A stretch of 64,000 bases of DNA from Luteimonas terricola. GTDB lineage: Bacteria; Pseudomonadota; Gammaproteobacteria; Xanthomonadales; Xanthomonadaceae. The DNA lies in contig NZ_SJRX01000002.1 of assembly GCF_004352845.1 (NCBI RefSeq), positions 372,001-436,000 on the forward strand. Reading direction: 5' to 3'. The notes beneath the pieces were generated by a model, which was not told where the DNA came from, did no database searches, and saw only the letters and a list, made by a program, of their open reading frames with translations. Shown in pieces: positions 2,549-42,110 of the stretch (position 1 is the first letter of the stretch; each line of letters opens with the position of its first letter). The position numbers and the translations under genes are program-made.

Positions 2549-4764
<2,216 letters not shown>

Positions 4765-27216: not shown

Positions 27217-27735
27217 TCAGGCGGCGGCGTTGAAGGCATCGCTGTAGTGCGCGGTGCCTTCCGGTACTGGCCCATGCAGGGCCAGCGCCATAAAGTAGTT
27301 GGGCGGCACGCCCGGCAGTTGCAGGCCCGCATGGGCCTGAAAGCCAAAGCGCCCGTAGTACGCGGGATCTCCCAACAGCACGCAACCTGCGGCCCGCATG
27401 GTCCGCAGTTCGGACAGTGCCTGTTCCATCAAACGTGAACCGATGCCTTGCCCCTGCCGTTGCGGCAGGACGGAGATCGGCCCCAGTCCATACCAGCCCT
27501 CGGCCTGCTGGTGGTGGCCATCGGTGATCGTGACGGGGGACAGCGCAACGTGGCCGACGATCTGCCCCTGTTCCTGGGCCACGATGGAAAGCGTCAGTTC
27601 GTTGGCTGCGCGCAAGGCGCGCATGATGAATTGCTCGGTGTGGCTGGTGTGCGGTGCATCGGCGAAAGCCGCAACCGTGACGGCTTCGATGGCGGCAATG
27701 TCATCCGGGGTTTCGTGTCGGAGCTGGAGGGTCAT
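27217..27735 (-). CDS. GNAT-family N-acetyltransferase
   Basis: A 172-residue acetyltransferase that should use acetyl-CoA; substrate unknown. LGPISVLPQRQGQGIGSRLMEQAL (about 93-116) is the acetyl-CoA-binding motif A (Q/RxxGxG/A), and GDPAYYGRFGF is the motif typical of the YhbS-like subfamily. Start ATG 27735 (MTLQLRHETPDDI) is the conserved N-terminus; a longer upstream frame lacks support. It is oriented against parB and away from DUF736, and looks like a single-gene accessory insertion in the ICE. Confidence 0.88.
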   Translation of the reverse strand: MTLQLRHETPDDIAAIEAVTVAAFADAPHTSHTEQFIMRALRAANELTLSIVAQEQGQIVGHVALSPVTITDGHHQQAEGWYGLGPISVLPQRQGQGIGSRLMEQALSELRTMRAAGCVLLGDPAYYGRFGFQAHAGLQLPGVPPNYFMALALHGPVPEGTAHYSDAFNAAA

Positions 27736-28485
27736 GGGCTTGTCTTCGGTTGCTTCCTGAAAATATAGAACGGCCTGGGCGTGTCGGCGCATAGCGCCGC
27801 CGGGCTTTCGGGCTGCGCCCCGTGCCGACTTCGCTGTCACGGCCATTCGGCTTCAATCCCTCACGCCTTCGCACCTGCGGCGCTGCGCGCTGCGCTTGCC
27901 TCCAGGGGAAAGCCCTGCGGGCTATCCCCGCCGCGCACAGCTTGGCGGGGCGCGGGGCTACGCCCCGGCTTGCTGCGGCAGGTTGCACCAAAGCGTACCG
28001 CCCTCGACGCTGGCGGTTCAGCGCAACCCCGTCACGAAGGACGGTTTACCGACACGCCGCCCGGCCACGCCTATGGAGCTTCCACACCACGCCGCAAGCA
28101 CGTCGCCGCCAGCAACGGCAGGGGGCATTCTTGCCTGTCATTGGCGTGTTGGCCTTGCCCGCGCCAGGGCGCAGGCCGGTGCAGCCGTCATGCGGGGATG
28201 CCGAGGCGGCCATCTCTCCCTTCGGGACAGGGCGGCCCCTGCGTCCTTGTCTCGTTGTGAATCCTGGCGGTGGCGCGGCTGCGCCTTGGGCTTCATGGCC
28301 GCAACCTTGCAGCGAAAACAATTTCCCCTGCGCTGCGCGCATTCCTCGCGGGACAAATTCTTTTCGCTTCCAGGTTCTCCACTGCGTTTCGACCGCAAGC
28401 GGTGCGGCCAGCCCATCCCCCGCTGACCGGATCACAACAAGGACGCGATGGGCGCGGCCTTGTTCAACCCGAAAGGAGAAACATC
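27736..28485. other. 750-bp non-coding region between GNAT and DUF736, with repeat copies
   Basis: No credible gene. Bases 27780-27866 resemble the start of leader A (22980-23063). Bases 27866-27988 share with 24547-24657 the TGCGCGCTGCGCTTGC, TCCAGGGGAA, ATCCCCGCCGCGCA and CAGGTTGCACC blocks. The end carries the AAAGGAG ribosome site for DUF736. Overlapping open frames on both strands reflect high GC rather than coding. Confidence 0.55.
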
Positions 28486-28800
28486 ATGGCTACCATCGGC
28501 ACCTTCACCGCAGAGAAAGACGGCTACACCGGCCAGCTCCGCACCCTGACCCTGAACGTCAAGGCTAAGCTGATTCCCAACGACAAGGGCGACACCGAGA
28601 ACGCCCCTGACTTCCGCTTGCAGGCGGCGGGCCACGACATTGGCGCGGCGTGGAAGAAAACCAGCGAGGCCGGGCGGCCCTACCTGTCGGTGAGCTTGGA
28701 CGATCCTTCGTTCCCGGCGACGGTCTATGCCCGCCTGATCGAAGGCGAGGACGGCACACACGACCTGATCTGGTCGCGCAGCAAGCCCAAGGCGGCCTGA
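28486..28800 (+). CDS. DUF736 family protein
   Basis: A 104-residue soluble protein of the DUF736 family, common on conjugative elements and plasmids of Proteobacteria. Typical features are [21 protein letters not shown] at the start, the central [23 protein letters not shown], and the IWSR ending. Biochemical function is unknown. ATG 28486 follows AAAGGAG at 28472-28478, one of the best ribosome sites in the ICE, suggesting strong expression. It converges on the TIR gene. Confidence 0.9.
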
Positions 28801-28814
28801 TGACGGCTCACTGC

Positions 28815-28845
28815 GCCCCGTCCATTGCGGCGGGGCACTTCGTGC
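28815..28845. terminator. Hairpin pair between convergent DUF736 and TIR genes
   Basis: GCCCCG (28815-28820) and CGGGGC (28831-28836) form one stem, and GCAC/GTGC with a TTC loop follows at once. It sits between the two converging stops and may end transcription in both directions. Confidence 0.35.
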
Positions 28846-28884
28846 CTATGAGTTTTCGCTGTCAGACAGCGCACTTCAGATGCA

Positions 28885-29766
28885 TCAAGGCCCAGCGGGG
28901 GGCAAATTATTCAAGCGAACTCGCTCAACAACCATCCGCGCTGCCTCCAGCGGTGTGTACTCATCCAAATCCACGTAACCATCAATCGAAAAGCTGCCGC
29001 TTATATCGGCATGATCGAAGCGCATGAACATGATTGCGTGATCGTTCTTGTTCTTGATGATGTTTCGGATGGCGCGCCACTCTAGGCCGCACCATTCCTT
29101 TCGCTCGTACTCTGCGCAAAGAAATACGACGACCAGATCGGAGTTATTGAGGTAGATGCGCTGCAACAAGGTGTCCAGATTAGGCCGCGCTAGCTGTGCA
29201 GTGAAATCCTTGTCATAGAAAACGGCATCGCGTCCCAATCGTTTCTTTACTTCGGCGGCTACGGCAGCTACGTAATCTCGTTTTTCACCGGGAAAGGACA
29301 AAGCAACCCGAAATCGCATTTCTTCAACGCGACCGGGCGGGCGGCCTTCGGCCACATAGCTCTCATCTACAAGGCCCTCTGAGGCAAGTAGCTCGAAAAG
29401 ATCCTCGTCCTTTACAGCCCAGTGGGTGCGCGACATCTCCCACCTTCCAATATCAAGCTTTGTCAGCAATGGCTTCAGTTTGGAGAAATTGAAAGCAGGG
29501 ATACTGTCATCGAACTCATACTCGACCAGGATGCTTCGCCCTCGCTCTTTTATTCTTCTGATGTACCCAACCTGCACAACCTCATCGTCGCCTTCATACG
29601 TGAAAAGTGTCGGCAGCGATTTCAGCTCTTCCAGAGCATTTGCATCAAGGCTGGAGAATTTCGCCTTGAGGCTATCTGTGGTGTGCTCAAGAAACCGCGT
29701 CCGATCATATTCGTATGCGGAAATGTCCCATGCACCTTCGGCAGCTGTAACAAGCAGGTTGTACAC
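28885..29766 (-). CDS. TIR-domain effector with an uncharacterised N-terminal domain
   Basis: A 293-residue two-domain protein. Residues 1-140 form an alpha/beta domain that I cannot name (AYEYDRTRFLEHT, LPTLFTYEG, VGYIRRIKERG, HWAVKDEDLFELL). Residues 151-285 are a TIR domain: FRVALSFPGEKRDYV (strand A), AVFYDKDF, LDTLLQRIYLNNSDLVVVFLCAEY, then WCGLEW with Glu229 at the catalytic position of NAD-cleaving TIRs. Bacterial TIR proteins of this kind act in anti-phage defence by NAD+ depletion or signalling; for this one that is inference. Start is GTG 29766 after an AAGGAA site. The XRE gene lies 48 bases upstream on the same strand, so they form an operon. GC is lower than the ICE backbone. Confidence 0.85.
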   Translation of the reverse strand: MYNLLVTAAEGAWDISAYEYDRTRFLEHTTDSLKAKFSSLDANALEELKSLPTLFTYEGDDEVVQVGYIRRIKERGRSILVEYEFDDSIPAFNFSKLKPLLTKLDIGRWEMSRTHWAVKDEDLFELLASEGLVDESYVAEGRPPGRVEEMRFRVALSFPGEKRDYVAAVAAEVKKRLGRDAVFYDKDFTAQLARPNLDTLLQRIYLNNSDLVVVFLCAEYERKEWCGLEWRAIRNIIKNKNDHAIMFMRFDHADISGSFSIDGYVDLDEYTPLEAARMVVERVRLNNLPPAGP

Positions 29767-29814
29767 AATTCTAATCTTCCTTAGTCAGCGTCCGCGGGAT
29801 GAAGGGGCTGCGAT

Positions 29815-30108
29815 TCAGTCACCACCTTCTCCGACAATTTCTTTGAGTTCCTGCCGTACCTGCTCCAGAACATCCTCAGCCTTGCGCGTGCTGTCGCCGG
29901 CATACGCCAACGTCAGCAGCGTGAGCGGATGAACTTCCATGACTTCGCACAGTTCGGCCAGCTTGTTCAGGGTCGGGCTTTTCAGATCGCGCTCCAGCGA
30001 ACTCAGGTAGGTGCGGCTGGACACGTCCGAGAATGCCTCTTGGCTCAGGCCGCGTGCCTTCCTGATCTGCCGCAGTGCATCGGGCAATGATGGCTTGCGC
30101 GTCGTCAT
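29815..30108 (-). CDS. XRE/Cro-C1 family transcriptional regulator
   Basis: A 97-residue helix-turn-helix repressor-like protein. LRQIRKARGLSQEAFSDVSS and RTYLSSLERDLKSPTLNKLAEL (about 11-52) make a complete XRE HTH with the usual SxxExG-like turn; a short helical tail follows. It is the first gene of an operon with the TIR effector. An 11-bp inverted repeat overlaps its start codon and a second lies at the likely promoter, consistent with autoregulation. It reads against all neighbouring ICE backbone genes. Confidence 0.88.
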   Translation of the reverse strand: MTTRKPSLPDALRQIRKARGLSQEAFSDVSSRTYLSSLERDLKSPTLNKLAELCEVMEVHPLTLLTLAYAGDSTRKAEDVLEQVRQELKEIVGEGGD

Positions 30109-30173
30109 TCTGGACTTTCCCCAAAATCCAGAATGACAACTTATTGCGCACTATAGGACTACAATCTATAGTG
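30104..30173 (-). promoter_or_regulatory. Two inverted-repeat operators at the XRE-TIR promoter
   Basis: GTCATTCTGGA (30104-30114) and TCCAGAATGAC (30127-30137) form a perfect 11-bp inverted repeat with a 12-base spacer and overlap the XRE start. CACTATAG (30149-30156) and CTATAGTG (30166-30173) form a second, 8-bp one with a 9-base spacer, about where the promoter should be. The remaining 30174-30370 holds small stems (TTCCGT/ACGGAA at 30207-30224) and the leader of the DUF2958 gene. Confidence 0.65.
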
Positions 30174-30370
30174 TTCATTTGGTGTTGTGAACCGCCGTCT
30201 CTGTTCTTCCGTGCTTTTACGGAAATCCGCTTCGGTGGATGTGTACTGATCCGGGGAACCGCTTCTGTGCCTTTGATGCTTTCCACTATTCTGGCTTTGC
30301 GCCTCCACGGATTGGCGCACAAGCGCATCCGTGCATTAGCGGTTTTGCAGGTGCAGGAGGCGCGCCGCCC

Positions 30371-30718
30371 ATGAAGCCCCTCATCACCGACGCGCAGCGC
30401 GCGCAACTGCTCGCCAACGGCCGCGCCCGCGCCGAGGACCAGGCCCTCGACCCGCTGCCGGTGGTTCGCTTGTTCACCCTGGATGCGCACGCCACCTGGC
30501 TGCTGGCCGCCCTCGATCCCGAGGACGGCGATACGGCCTACGGCTTGTGCGACATTGGCATCGGCATGCCCGCGCTGGACACCGTGCGGCTGTCCGAGCT
30601 GGCGTCTATCCTGGGGCCGCAGGAGCAACCCATCGCGCGTGACCTGTACTTCGTCGCCACGCGCACGCTGTCGGAATACACGCGGCTGGCGCAGCGCAAC
30701 GGGTCGATCATCGACTGA
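30371..30718 (+). CDS. DUF2958 family protein
   Basis: A 115-residue protein of the DUF2958 family found on ICEs and plasmids (MKPLITDAQRAQLLANGRAR; ALDPLPVVRLFTLDAHATWLL; CDIGIGMPALDTVRLSEL; RDLYFVATRTLSEY). Function unknown. ATG 30371 follows AGGAGG at 30355-30360 with a slightly long spacer. An 8-bp inverted repeat just after the stop (TGCCGACC/GGTCGGCA, 30725-30750) may end the transcript. Bases 30751-31072 to the next gene show no coding signal. Confidence 0.85.
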   Translation: MKPLITDAQRAQLLANGRARAEDQALDPLPVVRLFTLDAHATWLLAALDPEDGDTAYGLCDIGIGMPALDTVRLSELASILGPQEQPIARDLYFVATRTLSEYTRLAQRNGSIID

Positions 30719-37769: not shown

Positions 37770-38729
37770 TCAATCGCGCGGCGGGTGGCCTGCTGATCGC
37801 CGAGCGCTTCCGTTTGTGTTCGCACGCCCTAGCACGATCTCAACTTGACGCGCCAGATCAGCTTCCTGGTGCAACCAAGCGCGAAAAGCTAGAAGTGCCG
37901 GATCTTCCTTTCGAATAGCGCGGTATTCTAGAAGCCAACTCCCGACTGTGTGCGCGACGATCGGGAATGGCGCGACCAACCGGCCCGCTGCCAGGGCGTC
38001 GCTGACGTAAGGGATTTGAGCGATAGCGACTCCGACCCCGTCGAGCGCTGCCTGCATCGCCATGACATTGCTCTCGAACGACACTTCACTGGCGGGGTGC
38101 ACGGGAGAACGCAAGCCCGCAGCCTCGAACCAGTACGGCCATTCATTGGGCATGTCGGACACGACGATGAGAATCGCGTCGCGCAAATCGTCAGGCGAGC
38201 GCAGCGTCGATGCGAGTTTAGGGGTGCAGACCGGCACGACGGCGCTCGGGAATAGGCGTTCTGCATCGTAGCCTGGCAACGCGTCGGTATCGCGTCGGAT
38301 AGTGCAGGTCCAGTCATCGCGTACCGGACGAGTTGCGCCACCCGTCGCCATGCGCACTTCGACGTCGGGATGGCTGCGATAGAAGCTTGCCAGTCGCGGG
38401 ATCAACCAAGTGATCGCCAAGGTTGGACCGACTCCAACCGTCAGCACCGGGCCACTACGCATTGCCGTAACGCTTTCGGTGAGCCGGGCAATGGAATCGA
38501 AAGCATCAGTCAGACCGGACAGCAGCGCCTGCCCTTGCGCCGTCAGTTCAAGCGCGTTCGCATGTCGCAGAAACAGAGGAAAGCCAAAACGATCTTCCAG
38601 CAGACGGACCAAGCGACTTACCGCAGTTTGGGTGACGTTCAGCTCTCTTGCCGCGGCAGTGAAACTGCCATGCCGGCCAGCCGCCTCAAAAGCCCGCAGT
38701 CCGTTCAGCGAGGGTAATTGTCGCATCAT
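37770..38729 (-). CDS. LysR-family regulator (GcvA-like), cargo
   Basis: A 319-residue LysR-type regulator. The winged HTH is at about 4-62 (LNGLRAFEAAGRHGSFTAAARELNVTQTAVSRLVRLLEDRFG) and the effector-binding domain from about 90 (LTVGVGPTLAITWLIPRLA). The 'FEAAGRHGSFTAAARELNVTQ' style resembles the GcvA/AmpR group. It is divergent from the exported cupin gene with a 109-bp shared region, the classical LysR arrangement, so it probably controls cupin and porin. Two adjacent ATGs (38729, 38726) could start it. The Arg-rich last residues look species-specific. Confidence 0.9.
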   Translation of the reverse strand: MMRQLPSLNGLRAFEAAGRHGSFTAAARELNVTQTAVSRLVRLLEDRFGFPLFLRHANALELTAQGQALLSGLTDAFDSIARLTESVTAMRSGPVLTVGVGPTLAITWLIPRLASFYRSHPDVEVRMATGGATRPVRDDWTCTIRRDTDALPGYDAERLFPSAVVPVCTPKLASTLRSPDDLRDAILIVVSDMPNEWPYWFEAAGLRSPVHPASEVSFESNVMAMQAALDGVGVAIAQIPYVSDALAAGRLVAPFPIVAHTVGSWLLEYRAIRKEDPALLAFRAWLHQEADLARQVEIVLGRANTNGSARRSAGHPPRD

Positions 38730-38735
38730 GTGAGA

Positions 38736-38754
38736 CCCCAATTTTTTCTTGGGG
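38736..38754. promoter_or_regulatory. Inverted repeat in the LysR/cupin divergent promoter
   Basis: CCCCAA (38736-38741) and TTGGGG (38749-38754) face each other across 7 bases just upstream of the LysR start. It is a plausible autoregulatory site within the divergent intergenic region 38730-38838. Confidence 0.4.
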
Positions 38755-38838
38755 GAATGGTAAGTTAAAGTCGTTTGTCTGACAATGCCTACTACCTTAA
38801 TATGCCTTGAAAGAATCAAATTTCTTACGGAGGCTCAC

Positions 38839-40914: not shown

Positions 40915-41168
40915 CCTCCATCCACGAAAGACCAAGGAATGACCGCCGCATCGACGCCTCTTCCTTGACCTACAGCGACGTGCCCCGCGCGAACACGAAG
41001 CTGCAACGTTCGCTAGTTCCAGCGCTGGGTTGAGGCGGTGCTGTTGCTCCTCGCACCTCTGACTGGGGACACCATCTTTACGGCTAACGCAAATGATGGC
41101 GATCAAGGCTAAGGCTTCCACAACGATCGAAGCAGTCGGTGGTGCTATCACACAAAGGAGATCGTCCA

Positions 41169-42110
41169 GTGGAATTTCGTCATCTGCGTTGCTTTCTGGC
41201 CGTTGCTGAAGAACTCCACTTTGCCCGTGCCGCTGAGCGGCTACACATCGAGCAGTCACCTCTATCACGTGCTATCAAGGAACTGGAAGAGGAGTTGGGC
41301 GTGCAGCTCTTTGTGCGCACTACTCGCAGCACGCGCTTGACTCTCGCCGGAAAGCTGTTCCTCAATCACATTCCGCGCGTGTTTGCAGTCCTGGAGCAGG
41401 CGCGTGAAAGCGTGAAATCGGCTACCAATGGCTTTCACGGGCAGTTGCGCATTGCTTTGTCTGATGGCATCACACCATCGCGCCTGCCGGCGCTACTGGC
41501 ACGTTGCCGCGAAGAATATCCAGAAATCGAAATCCGGCTCTTCGAAGTGCCGCTGGATCAGCAGATCAAGGGCCTGCATGATGATCTGTACGACGCGGGC
41601 TTTTCCATGGCCGATGAGGCCGGCGACGGCATCATCGTCAATCCAGTTTGGGAAGACCAGTTGATGGTAGCCGTGCCCGCGCGTCATCCCGTGCTGGCTT
41701 ACAAACGAATTCCGCTGGAAGAAGTGCTGCGCTACCCGATCGTGCTGGGTGATCCCGCAGCATGCGAAGGCCATGCTCGCCAAGTTGATCGCATCCTGCG
41801 CCGACAGGAACGGGAGCCGCTGATCGCGCAGCGTGTGGCGACGTTCGACGTGATGATGATGCTGGTATCGGCCGGCTTGGCATTGGGCCTTGCGGGTGGC
41901 GCGCACATCGCATTCAGTCGTGAGCTAGGCGTCGTGGCGCGCCCGCTTGCGGGACAGCCACCCTTGTTGACTACTTACCTGCTTCGTAGGGACGCCGAAC
42001 CGTCGCAGATGCTGGCTCGCTTCATTGAACGGCTGGCGTCCATGGAGTCGAACGATCCTGATTGGCCTGCATCCTCAAAATCTGGTGCTTTGAAGGATAT
42101 CGAGCTATGA
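41169..42110 (+). CDS. LysR-family regulator of the transfer region
   Basis: A 313-residue LysR-type regulator (EFRHLRCFLAVAEELHFARA; LHIEQSPLSRAIKELEEELG as recognition helix). Its position upstream of traG is that of TraR in Tn4371-type ICEs, so it is likely part of the backbone and may control transfer genes; that is inference. The GTG start at 41169 follows AAAGGAG. Its stop overlaps the EexN-like lipoprotein gene by 4 bases, which couples the regulator to entry exclusion. Confidence 0.88.
   Translation: MEFRHLRCFLAVAEELHFARAAERLHIEQSPLSRAIKELEEELGVQLFVRTTRSTRLTLAGKLFLNHIPRVFAVLEQARESVKSATNGFHGQLRIALSDGITPSRLPALLARCREEYPEIEIRLFEVPLDQQIKGLHDDLYDAGFSMADEAGDGIIVNPVWEDQLMVAVPARHPVLAYKRIPLEEVLRYPIVLGDPAACEGHARQVDRILRRQEREPLIAQRVATFDVMMMLVSAGLALGLAGGAHIAFSRELGVVARPLAGQPPLLTTYLLRRDAEPSQMLARFIERLASMESNDPDWPASSKSGALKDIEL

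Follow-up and report, generated by a model that had tools for sequence, protein, structure and literature searches.

A 64,000-nucleotide stretch of the Luteimonas terricola genome (NZ_SJRX01000002.1, positions 372,001 to 436,000; hereafter the window) carries on its minus strand a gene for an XRE regulator, followed after a 48-bp gap by a gene for a two-part TIR protein, both lying within an integrative and conjugative element (ICE) that resembles Tn4371 (Table 1). The presence of this pair, as given in an initial annotation made from the DNA letters, was borne out by the two open reading frames (ORFs) and their HTH_3 and PF13676 matches, and so was its lower GC content (51.5% for the TIR gene and 59.2% for the XRE gene against 67.1% for the window). 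The TIR gene is present as a single copy in the genome. The comparisons described here indicate that this gene is one of several kinds of cargo found in a slot behind a regulator of the ICE, and that the N-terminal part of its product (hereafter the N-module) recurs in front of different effectors.

No model of Pfam, NCBIfam, or PADLOC fits the first ~145 residues of the TIR protein, in agreement with the earlier statement that the N-terminal 140 residues hold no nameable domain, and neither SAVED nor another named sensor domain of Pfam was found in the N-module. In a tblastn comparison of the TIR protein with plasmids and phages, some proteins matched over residues ~1-145 only, i.e., FRG proteins (phages Tritos and P2_2H1 and Paraburkholderia), a CAP12/PCTIR-TIR protein (Vibrio), and a SEFIR/TIR protein (E. 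coli plasmids). A profile of seven N-modules, with RTHWA-K as the search pattern for fetching the genome and viral-contig loci, yielded 80 genome loci (the best of 223 relatives) and 36 viral-contig loci from IMG/VR; these 116 loci, the window, and five annotated records gave 122 proteins. In 44 sequences chosen without this motif, R113, T114, H115, W116, and K119 are invariant and A117 is conserved in at least 90%. Besides the motif, near-invariant positions are E58 (120 of 120), E27 (117), G67 (116), and P52 and F55 (115 each). Two of the 122 proteins are frame-broken and lack the motif, and seven are too short behind the module to classify; BLAST clustering of the other 113 gave the effector classes FRG (52), CAP12-TIR (25), TIR_2 (18), NDT-like (9), and SEFIR/TIR (8) as well as one single protein (Abi_C). 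The cluster names were taken from a few Pfam-scanned members of each, and the NDT-like (deoxyribosyltransferase-like) label is tentative, with PF05014 below the cut-off in two of the four scanned members and missing from the other two; the TIR_2 match of one plasmid protein (L006) is also below the Pfam cut-off. A further length-restricted search for short proteins found 278, many of them partial, with P0185 as a second Abi_C protein among them. Of 369 genomes from the window's class, 7 (its own included) have the N-module, as do 8 of 399 Burkholderiaceae genomes.

A quick tree of the N-module alone was built from 112 rows, 104 of them different. The six effector labels need eight changes on this tree, the minimum being five. 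The window's TIR_2 group (eight rows) falls into a supported clade together with 36 FRG-linked modules, and the ten other TIR_2 modules are in a second supported clade. Because the window's module sits in a supported clade that is mostly FRG-linked, the tree indicates that the same N-module has swapped effectors, at least between FRG and TIR_2.

Table 1 Features of the slot and its control region, with positions counted from the first letter of the window
Feature	Position	Strand	Details
DUF736 gene, downstream border of the slot	28270..28800	+	PF05284
Gene of the N-module and TIR protein, slot cargo	28885..29766	-	ORF, 293 aa, GTG start
TIR_2 domain	28963..29307	-	aa 154-268, PF13676, 38 bits against a cut-off of 28
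Glu229 codon, putative catalytic glutamate	29080..29082	-	WCGLEW motif; catalytic role putative
N-module, candidate sensor/input domain	29332..29766	-	about aa 1-145
RTHWAVK signature of the N-module	29410..29430	-	aa 113-119
XRE (HTH_3) regulator, core gene of Tn4371-like ICEs	29815..30108	-	97 aa, ATG start, HTH_3 41 bits
Inverted repeat spanning the XRE start, predicted to form an RNA hairpin	30101..30140	-	arms 30101-30118 and 30123-30140, 18 nt
CACTATAG-N9-CTATAGTG at the -10 region, candidate XRE operator	30149..30173	-	arms 30149-30156 and 30166-30173, 8 nt, perfect
DUF2958 gene, upstream border of the slot	30239..30718	+	PF11171

For the C-terminal part, the TIR_2 match lies above the Pfam cut-off and Glu229, which the initial annotation had singled out, is invariant in 44 of 44 sequences (the window's included) and in all 18 members of the wider TIR_2 class. 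These two features, a TIR domain and a conserved catalytic-type glutamate, are those expected of a TIR NADase defence protein, and they suggest that the gene is probably a single-protein TIR NADase defence gene; the earlier proposal of such a gene is thus supported, with the addition of a widely recurring unnamed N-terminal domain. Relatives of the TIR protein are numerous (2190 at E ≤ 1e-3 among 4879 candidates), and a 96.2% identical one is encoded in the ICEs of two Pseudomonas plasmids. Among 398 genomes of the window's order, six matches at E ≤ 1e-20 were found, i.e., its own and five others, the nearest being 52% identical.

The protein resembles SpbK of ICEBs1 from Bacillus subtilis in being a single ICE-borne TIR protein with an N-terminal domain ahead of a C-terminal TIR domain. 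According to the available portion of PMC12847820, the N-terminal domain of SpbK docks on the phage portal YonE and so switches on the NADase, the TIR domains clustering and cutting NAD+; the domain is described there as a 94-residue four-helix bundle, whereas that of the window's protein, compared by description, has ~145 residues and the RTHWA-K signature. A further difference is that the window's N-module is common to FRG, CAP12, SEFIR, NDT-like, and Abi_C effectors. No PADLOC model, the ThsB models included, matches the window's TIR protein. Five of six scanned N-module proteins score well on the PADLOC models bSEFIR, PDC-S15 (FRG), and PDC-S35 (CAP12-TIR), but these matches sit on the C-terminal effector and not on the N-module (residues 166-440 of P0121, 156-304 of P0125, and 126-304 of P0126).

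With Thoeris, the window's protein shares the TIR-type enzyme, and in a sister ICE (L218) this slot is taken up by a true Thoeris pair; the window's protein differs in that no ThsA was found among the flanking genes scanned with Pfam and in that the ThsB models miss it. The combination of a cyclase and a cyclic-nucleotide-binding effector that defines CBASS and Pycsar was not seen either, with no cyclase among the same genes. The earlier remarks that ThsA, Argonaute, and a cyclase are missing and that the locus is not a Thoeris, SPARTA, or CBASS unit thus hold for the scanned flanking genes, the rest of the window lying outside that scan. The same genes are relevant to the idea that the TIR domain, like ThsB, produces a cyclic ADP-ribose isomer as a signal to an effector from another locus. 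Such a role would suit a TIR protein whose slot holds ThsB systems in other ICEs, and SpbK also makes N1-cyclic ADP-ribose according to the portion of PMC12847820 cited above; on the other side, no ThsA-like gene lies among the scanned flanking genes, and the fusion of the N-module to chemically different effectors (FRG, NDT-like, and Abi_C) fits self-contained proteins better. We consider signalling to a distant effector quite unlikely.

The flanking genes identified with Pfam are ParB_N, GNAT, DUF736, DUF2958, RovC-like, RPA, DUF3363 (which we take to be the relaxase of the ICE), LysR, and TrbE/TraG P-loop. They show the core order of the family, namely ParB, XRE region, RepA, ParA, relaxase, LysR regulator, and Trb genes, and the ICE assignment rests on this order, the other hallmark of the family being a Tn4371-type integrase with the attB TTTTTCAT. 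The same order surrounds XRE in annotated ICEs, and ParA was assigned on the basis of these annotations and of a marker compared by tblastn, not by Pfam. Relatives of XRE (E ≤ 1e-12) were found at 67 places in 51 of 399 Burkholderiaceae genomes, and among the best 60 of the 67, which were fetched, 49 have ICE markers beside XRE, and 45 of these 49 have both DUF2958 and DUF736. Between XRE and DUF736, 28 of the 49 ICE loci hold no ORF of at least 120 residues, 18 hold a co-directional ORF, and three hold antisense ORFs only, with the reservations that some ORFs in these GC-rich slots may be spurious and that some loci are near copies; grouped at a DNA identity of at least 97%, the loci form 38 clusters, of which 18 are entirely empty and 20 contain some cargo. 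In plasmid records, four XRE regions (one also in the Burkholderiaceae set) have no ORF of at least 120 residues and a fifth has antisense genes only. These comparisons of gene order indicate that XRE belongs to the ICE and not to the TIR gene.

Among the surroundings inspected, the window and the ICEs of the two Pseudomonas plasmids were the only places with XRE and the TIR gene side by side; the pair may recur in further ICEs, as some homologues of the TIR protein are 85-88% identical and their surroundings lay outside the comparison. No XRE relative was found in any of the 116 N-module loci (phmmer at E ≤ 1e-5 and then a profile of the four sequences found; some loci end near the gene), nor in 18 more N-module loci with ~1.5 kb on each side, and in none of the five other TIR-positive genomes of the window's order does XRE lie within ~1.5 kb. 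In Burkholderiaceae, four genomes have both the N-module and XRE, at different places. Because no XRE relative turned up in these N-module loci and XRE is kept without TIR in most ICE loci examined, we reject a dedicated XRE-TIR module, and the description of the pair as a stand-alone unit in the initial annotation is not supported. The recurrence of the pair in other ICEs, which that annotation had proposed as a check, was seen in the two Pseudomonas plasmid ICEs, whereas the other ICE slots examined are empty or hold other cargo.

The same data weigh on the explanation that XRE and TIR are a type II toxin-antitoxin system that stabilises the ICE, with XRE binding and neutralising the TIR toxin and repressing the operon. 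The regulator-effector order, the 48-bp gap, the repeat at the promoter, and a weak match of XRE to TIGR03070, an antitoxin model (26 bits, with the cut-off at 71.65), would agree with it. An antitoxin should be tied to its toxin, and this linkage was not found: XRE has no ORF of at least 120 residues behind it in the 28 ICE loci mentioned above, precedes unrelated cargo such as Thoeris and Gabija elsewhere, and had no match in any of the 116 N-module loci. We regard a toxin-antitoxin pair as highly improbable. A phage origin of XRE was also rejected, with no match at E ≤ 1e-8 in 50,697 phage records. The best PADLOC match of XRE is HTH_VI (46 bits, profile positions 2-88 of 92), presumably the regulator of type VI retrons; no reverse transcriptase was found among the slot proteins scanned.

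The genes found behind XRE in other ICEs differ widely. Thoeris ThsB and ThsA-macro follow it in L218, a ThsB-like TIR and a caspase in L198, DUF4917/PDC-S21 in L189 (L221, which was not scanned, begins alike), CAP12-TIR/PDC-S35 in L223, and an AAA ATPase with a D12 methylase in L211 (L219, also not scanned, begins alike); in plasmid pKAZ5, the slot holds GajA of Gabija and then a gene annotated as PcrA helicase. The cargo scan left out two loci (L190 and L193). As far as gene content shows, the slot is an exchangeable cargo site behind a conserved XRE, often but not purely for defence.

We also compared the control region ahead of XRE. The initial annotation had placed double operators here, and both repeats that it named were recovered: the 11-bp repeat over the regulator start lies within longer arms of 18 nt, which are 89% complementary, and a second inverted repeat is located at a promoter-like site, where two such sites were found against 0.7 expected in shuffles, so that the promoter call is weak when taken alone. 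The core GATTGTAG[CT][CT]CTATAG upstream of XRE is matched without change in 51 of 57 ICE loci and with at most two changes in 56; in 17 non-ICE XRE relatives the corresponding numbers are 5 and 10. A second CTATAG stands ahead of this core in three of four sequences compared. The element CTATAG-N9-CTATAG is the likelier operator/promoter element on these patterns, and XRE would be the protein that binds it.

The repeat over the XRE start has a different character. Near the predicted 5' end of the mRNA, it forms a predicted hairpin whose loop contains a Shine-Dalgarno-like (SD-like) GGGG and whose 3' arm includes the start codon of XRE, and such a leader is present in 57 of 57 ICE loci (the window included), in 36 distinct versions. 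All 36 fold to a long hairpin, with a median of -16.6 kcal/mol; relative to dinucleotide shuffles, the median z is -3.6, with values from -6.3 to -2.1 and -6.0 for the window. Because the MAFFT alignment of the leaders had misaligned loops, pairs were counted on each leader's own predicted fold, which leans to pairing. Counted in this way, stem position 12 is A-U in 17 leaders, U-A in 16, G-C in one, and unpaired in two; position 8 is U-A in 23, U-G in seven, C-G in two, and unpaired in four; and position 7 is C-G in 34 and U-A in two. Over the same set, the helix-turn-helix (HTH) segment SQEAFSxVSSRTY is near constant. Palindromes at the regulator's own promoter are the usual binding sites of Cro/C1-type proteins, and the window's copy of the repeat is near perfect, both of which would suit a DNA operator bound by XRE; that the arms change together in the 36 distinct leaders under a nearly fixed HTH segment, that 133 of 561 stem pairs are G-U, a pairing of RNA only (with the own-fold counts favouring pairing), and that an SD-like run occupies the loop all argue the other way, and we hold an operator at this place to be unlikely. 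A search of 28700-30500 against Rfam (E ≤ 1) gave no match for the leader. Since the hairpin is present in all 57 ICE loci with a co-varying stem and the DNA-reading helix hardly varies, the 11-bp repeat is more likely part of an RNA hairpin governing XRE translation than an operator; of the double operators proposed earlier, the promoter element is kept as a candidate and the start repeat is not favoured.

Taken together, these observations are best accommodated, in our view with fair probability, by a one-protein sensor-NADase of the TIR type that acts like SpbK in abortive infection and travels as exchangeable ICE cargo behind the conserved XRE and its promoter. The N-module would most likely recognise a phage or another invader cue; once triggered, the C-terminal TIR domains would assemble and destroy NAD+ with Glu229 as the catalytic residue, and the loss of NAD+ would stop the growth of the infected cell. 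XRE, as a regulator of the ICE, would most likely repress the shared promoter at CTATAG-N9-CTATAG, its own translation being limited by the RNA hairpin over the ribosome-binding site. Any co-directional gene entering the slot would come under the XRE promoter, which XRE would keep low in a settled host; as a guess, an ICE arriving in a cell without XRE might have its slot genes freely transcribed for a while. The parts of this scheme that we infer are that phages are sensed, that the TIR domain is an active NADase, that the protein serves in defence, that XRE acts as a repressor, and that the hairpin controls translation.

Several results weigh against this scheme. A profile search of the PDB gave weak matches only, of which a plant TIR (E 0.033) was the best, and no informative one for the N-module, which could itself be an enzyme; the N-module tree is quick, with 134 columns and long branches. 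Slot cargo of a non-defence kind was also seen, i.e., a pirin (L206), MORN with an M15 peptidase (L205), and DUF6367 (L213), and other slots hold a BrnT-like toxin below the cut-off (L222), sub-threshold exonuclease/phosphatase and trypsin-like matches (L183 and L220), or ORFs with no Pfam match (L216, L224, and L227). Finally, the neighbours of stand-alone N-module genes are not clearly enriched in PADLOC matches over a small control: at E ≤ 1e-10, 184 families per 141 proteins were found against 52 per 62, the control consisting of 10 of 20 intended stretches (10 contigs were too short) and two neighbour ORFs of broken modules (L036 and L057) being excluded. Strong Lamassu LmuB and PDC-S06 matches are found among these neighbours, several of whose loci are closely related to each other.

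The target of the defence would be open to another explanation, namely that the module protects its ICE from competing mobile elements such as plasmids and rival ICEs and not from phages. Its location in an ICE would be in keeping with this, and the Gabija and Thoeris cargo shows only that some defence is carried; N-module proteins also occur in phages and viral contigs (Tritos, P2_2H1, and the 36 IMG/VR loci), which suits inter-phage competition, and we judge an ICE guard of this kind to be very unlikely.

A wider and more tentative reading than that of a one-protein TIR defence gene is that the N-module is an unrecognised universal immune input domain with at least six interchangeable outputs, to which Tn4371-like ICEs would add a plug-in expression slot. 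One sensor, probably for one conserved phage feature, might then be coupled to FRG, TIR_2, CAP12-TIR, SEFIR, deoxyribosyltransferase-like, and Abi_C outputs, with a long HEPN-like architecture possible in one genome and RHIM-like amyloid motifs, in separate proteins, in some phages; most outputs could be expected to attack NAD+ or nucleotides. The plug-in slot would conceivably consist of the XRE promoter and the start-codon RNA hairpin, with defence genes being exchanged there. In the accessible text of a review (PMC9503650), TIR domains are listed among NAD+-consuming domains, and the Frg domain is said to be possibly an NADase as well.

An input domain shared across unrelated effector chemistry would offer a direct route to the trigger, as an activator of one member can be tested on the others. 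In addition, a fixed slot with a promoter of its own, found both empty and filled across a widespread family of proteobacterial ICEs, amounts to a natural collection of defence genes, and reading all filled slots should give known systems (Gabija and Thoeris) and unknown ones in one frame. TIR NADases on ICEs were already known, and so was XRE in Tn4371-like ICEs: the available portion of the 2009 family description (PMC2789088) lists XRE regulators, with two homologues, after a ParB-like gene as well as hotspots with different adaptive genes, and in that portion the gene behind XRE is not presented as a slot, nor are defence cargo or a hairpin. A literature search, with subscription papers and preprints mostly outside its reach, gave no account of the shared N-module, of an XRE slot with defence cargo, or of the hairpin; the main text of PMC12629846 mentions neither Tn4371, XRE, nor DUF736, and that of PMC9122126 (Rousset 2022) does not mention FRG. 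What we propose is a family of sensor-effector proteins whose common sensor had gone unrecognised, found here in an exchange slot.

Some N-modules are arranged in other ways. In one genome (L255), a 615-residue frame begins close to the N-module and ends in a part that matches none of the effector classes and contains RRNGIIHG, an R-x5-H motif that recalls HEPN. In three viral contigs (L122:2881-7323, L123, and L121:3806-4456), effector-less N-modules lie at the C-terminus of proteins of ~200 residues, the starts of which carry the motifs GKGVQVG, GSGIQVG, and NGVQIA, which we take to be RHIM-like; in L122 and L123, two such genes stand in tandem ahead of a 768-residue ORF with a P-loop. In L097:4001-4914, the N-module and a CAP12-TIR-like sequence (judged by eye) are in two overlapping frames, either a natural split or a frameshift. 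The distant N-module-TIR_2 gene of L006 (4001-5169, a P. aeruginosa plasmid) has an annotated HTH gene beside it on the opposite strand, which this search, not aimed at other kinds of HTH neighbours, did not relate to XRE.

Outside ICEs, the 11 XRE relatives of the Burkholderiaceae set (L228-L238) have no common cargo by eye. On the Achromobacter A8 plasmid pA82 (L144, 3492-5583), a non-ICE relative has behind it another HTH gene and then a toxin gene of the HipA family, and in E. coli AR_0128 (L010, ~3900-4250), a decayed XRE relative and promoter lie ahead of genes for a patatin-like phospholipase, a nucleotidyltransferase, and a 581-residue protein, a set that is CBASS-like by annotation.

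Within the window, a GNAT acetyltransferase gene (27217-27846, minus strand) lies between ParB and DUF736, and the BYT-5 ICE has an acetyltransferase in the corresponding position. The ICE region further contains two LysR-type regulators (37770-38819 on the minus strand and 41139-42110 on the plus strand), one of which may be TraR, a regulator given as conserved in the Tn4371 family in the available portion of PMC11448139. As the GNAT gene and the first of these LysR genes are also on the minus strand, the XRE and TIR genes do not read against the whole ICE backbone, contrary to what had first been stated.

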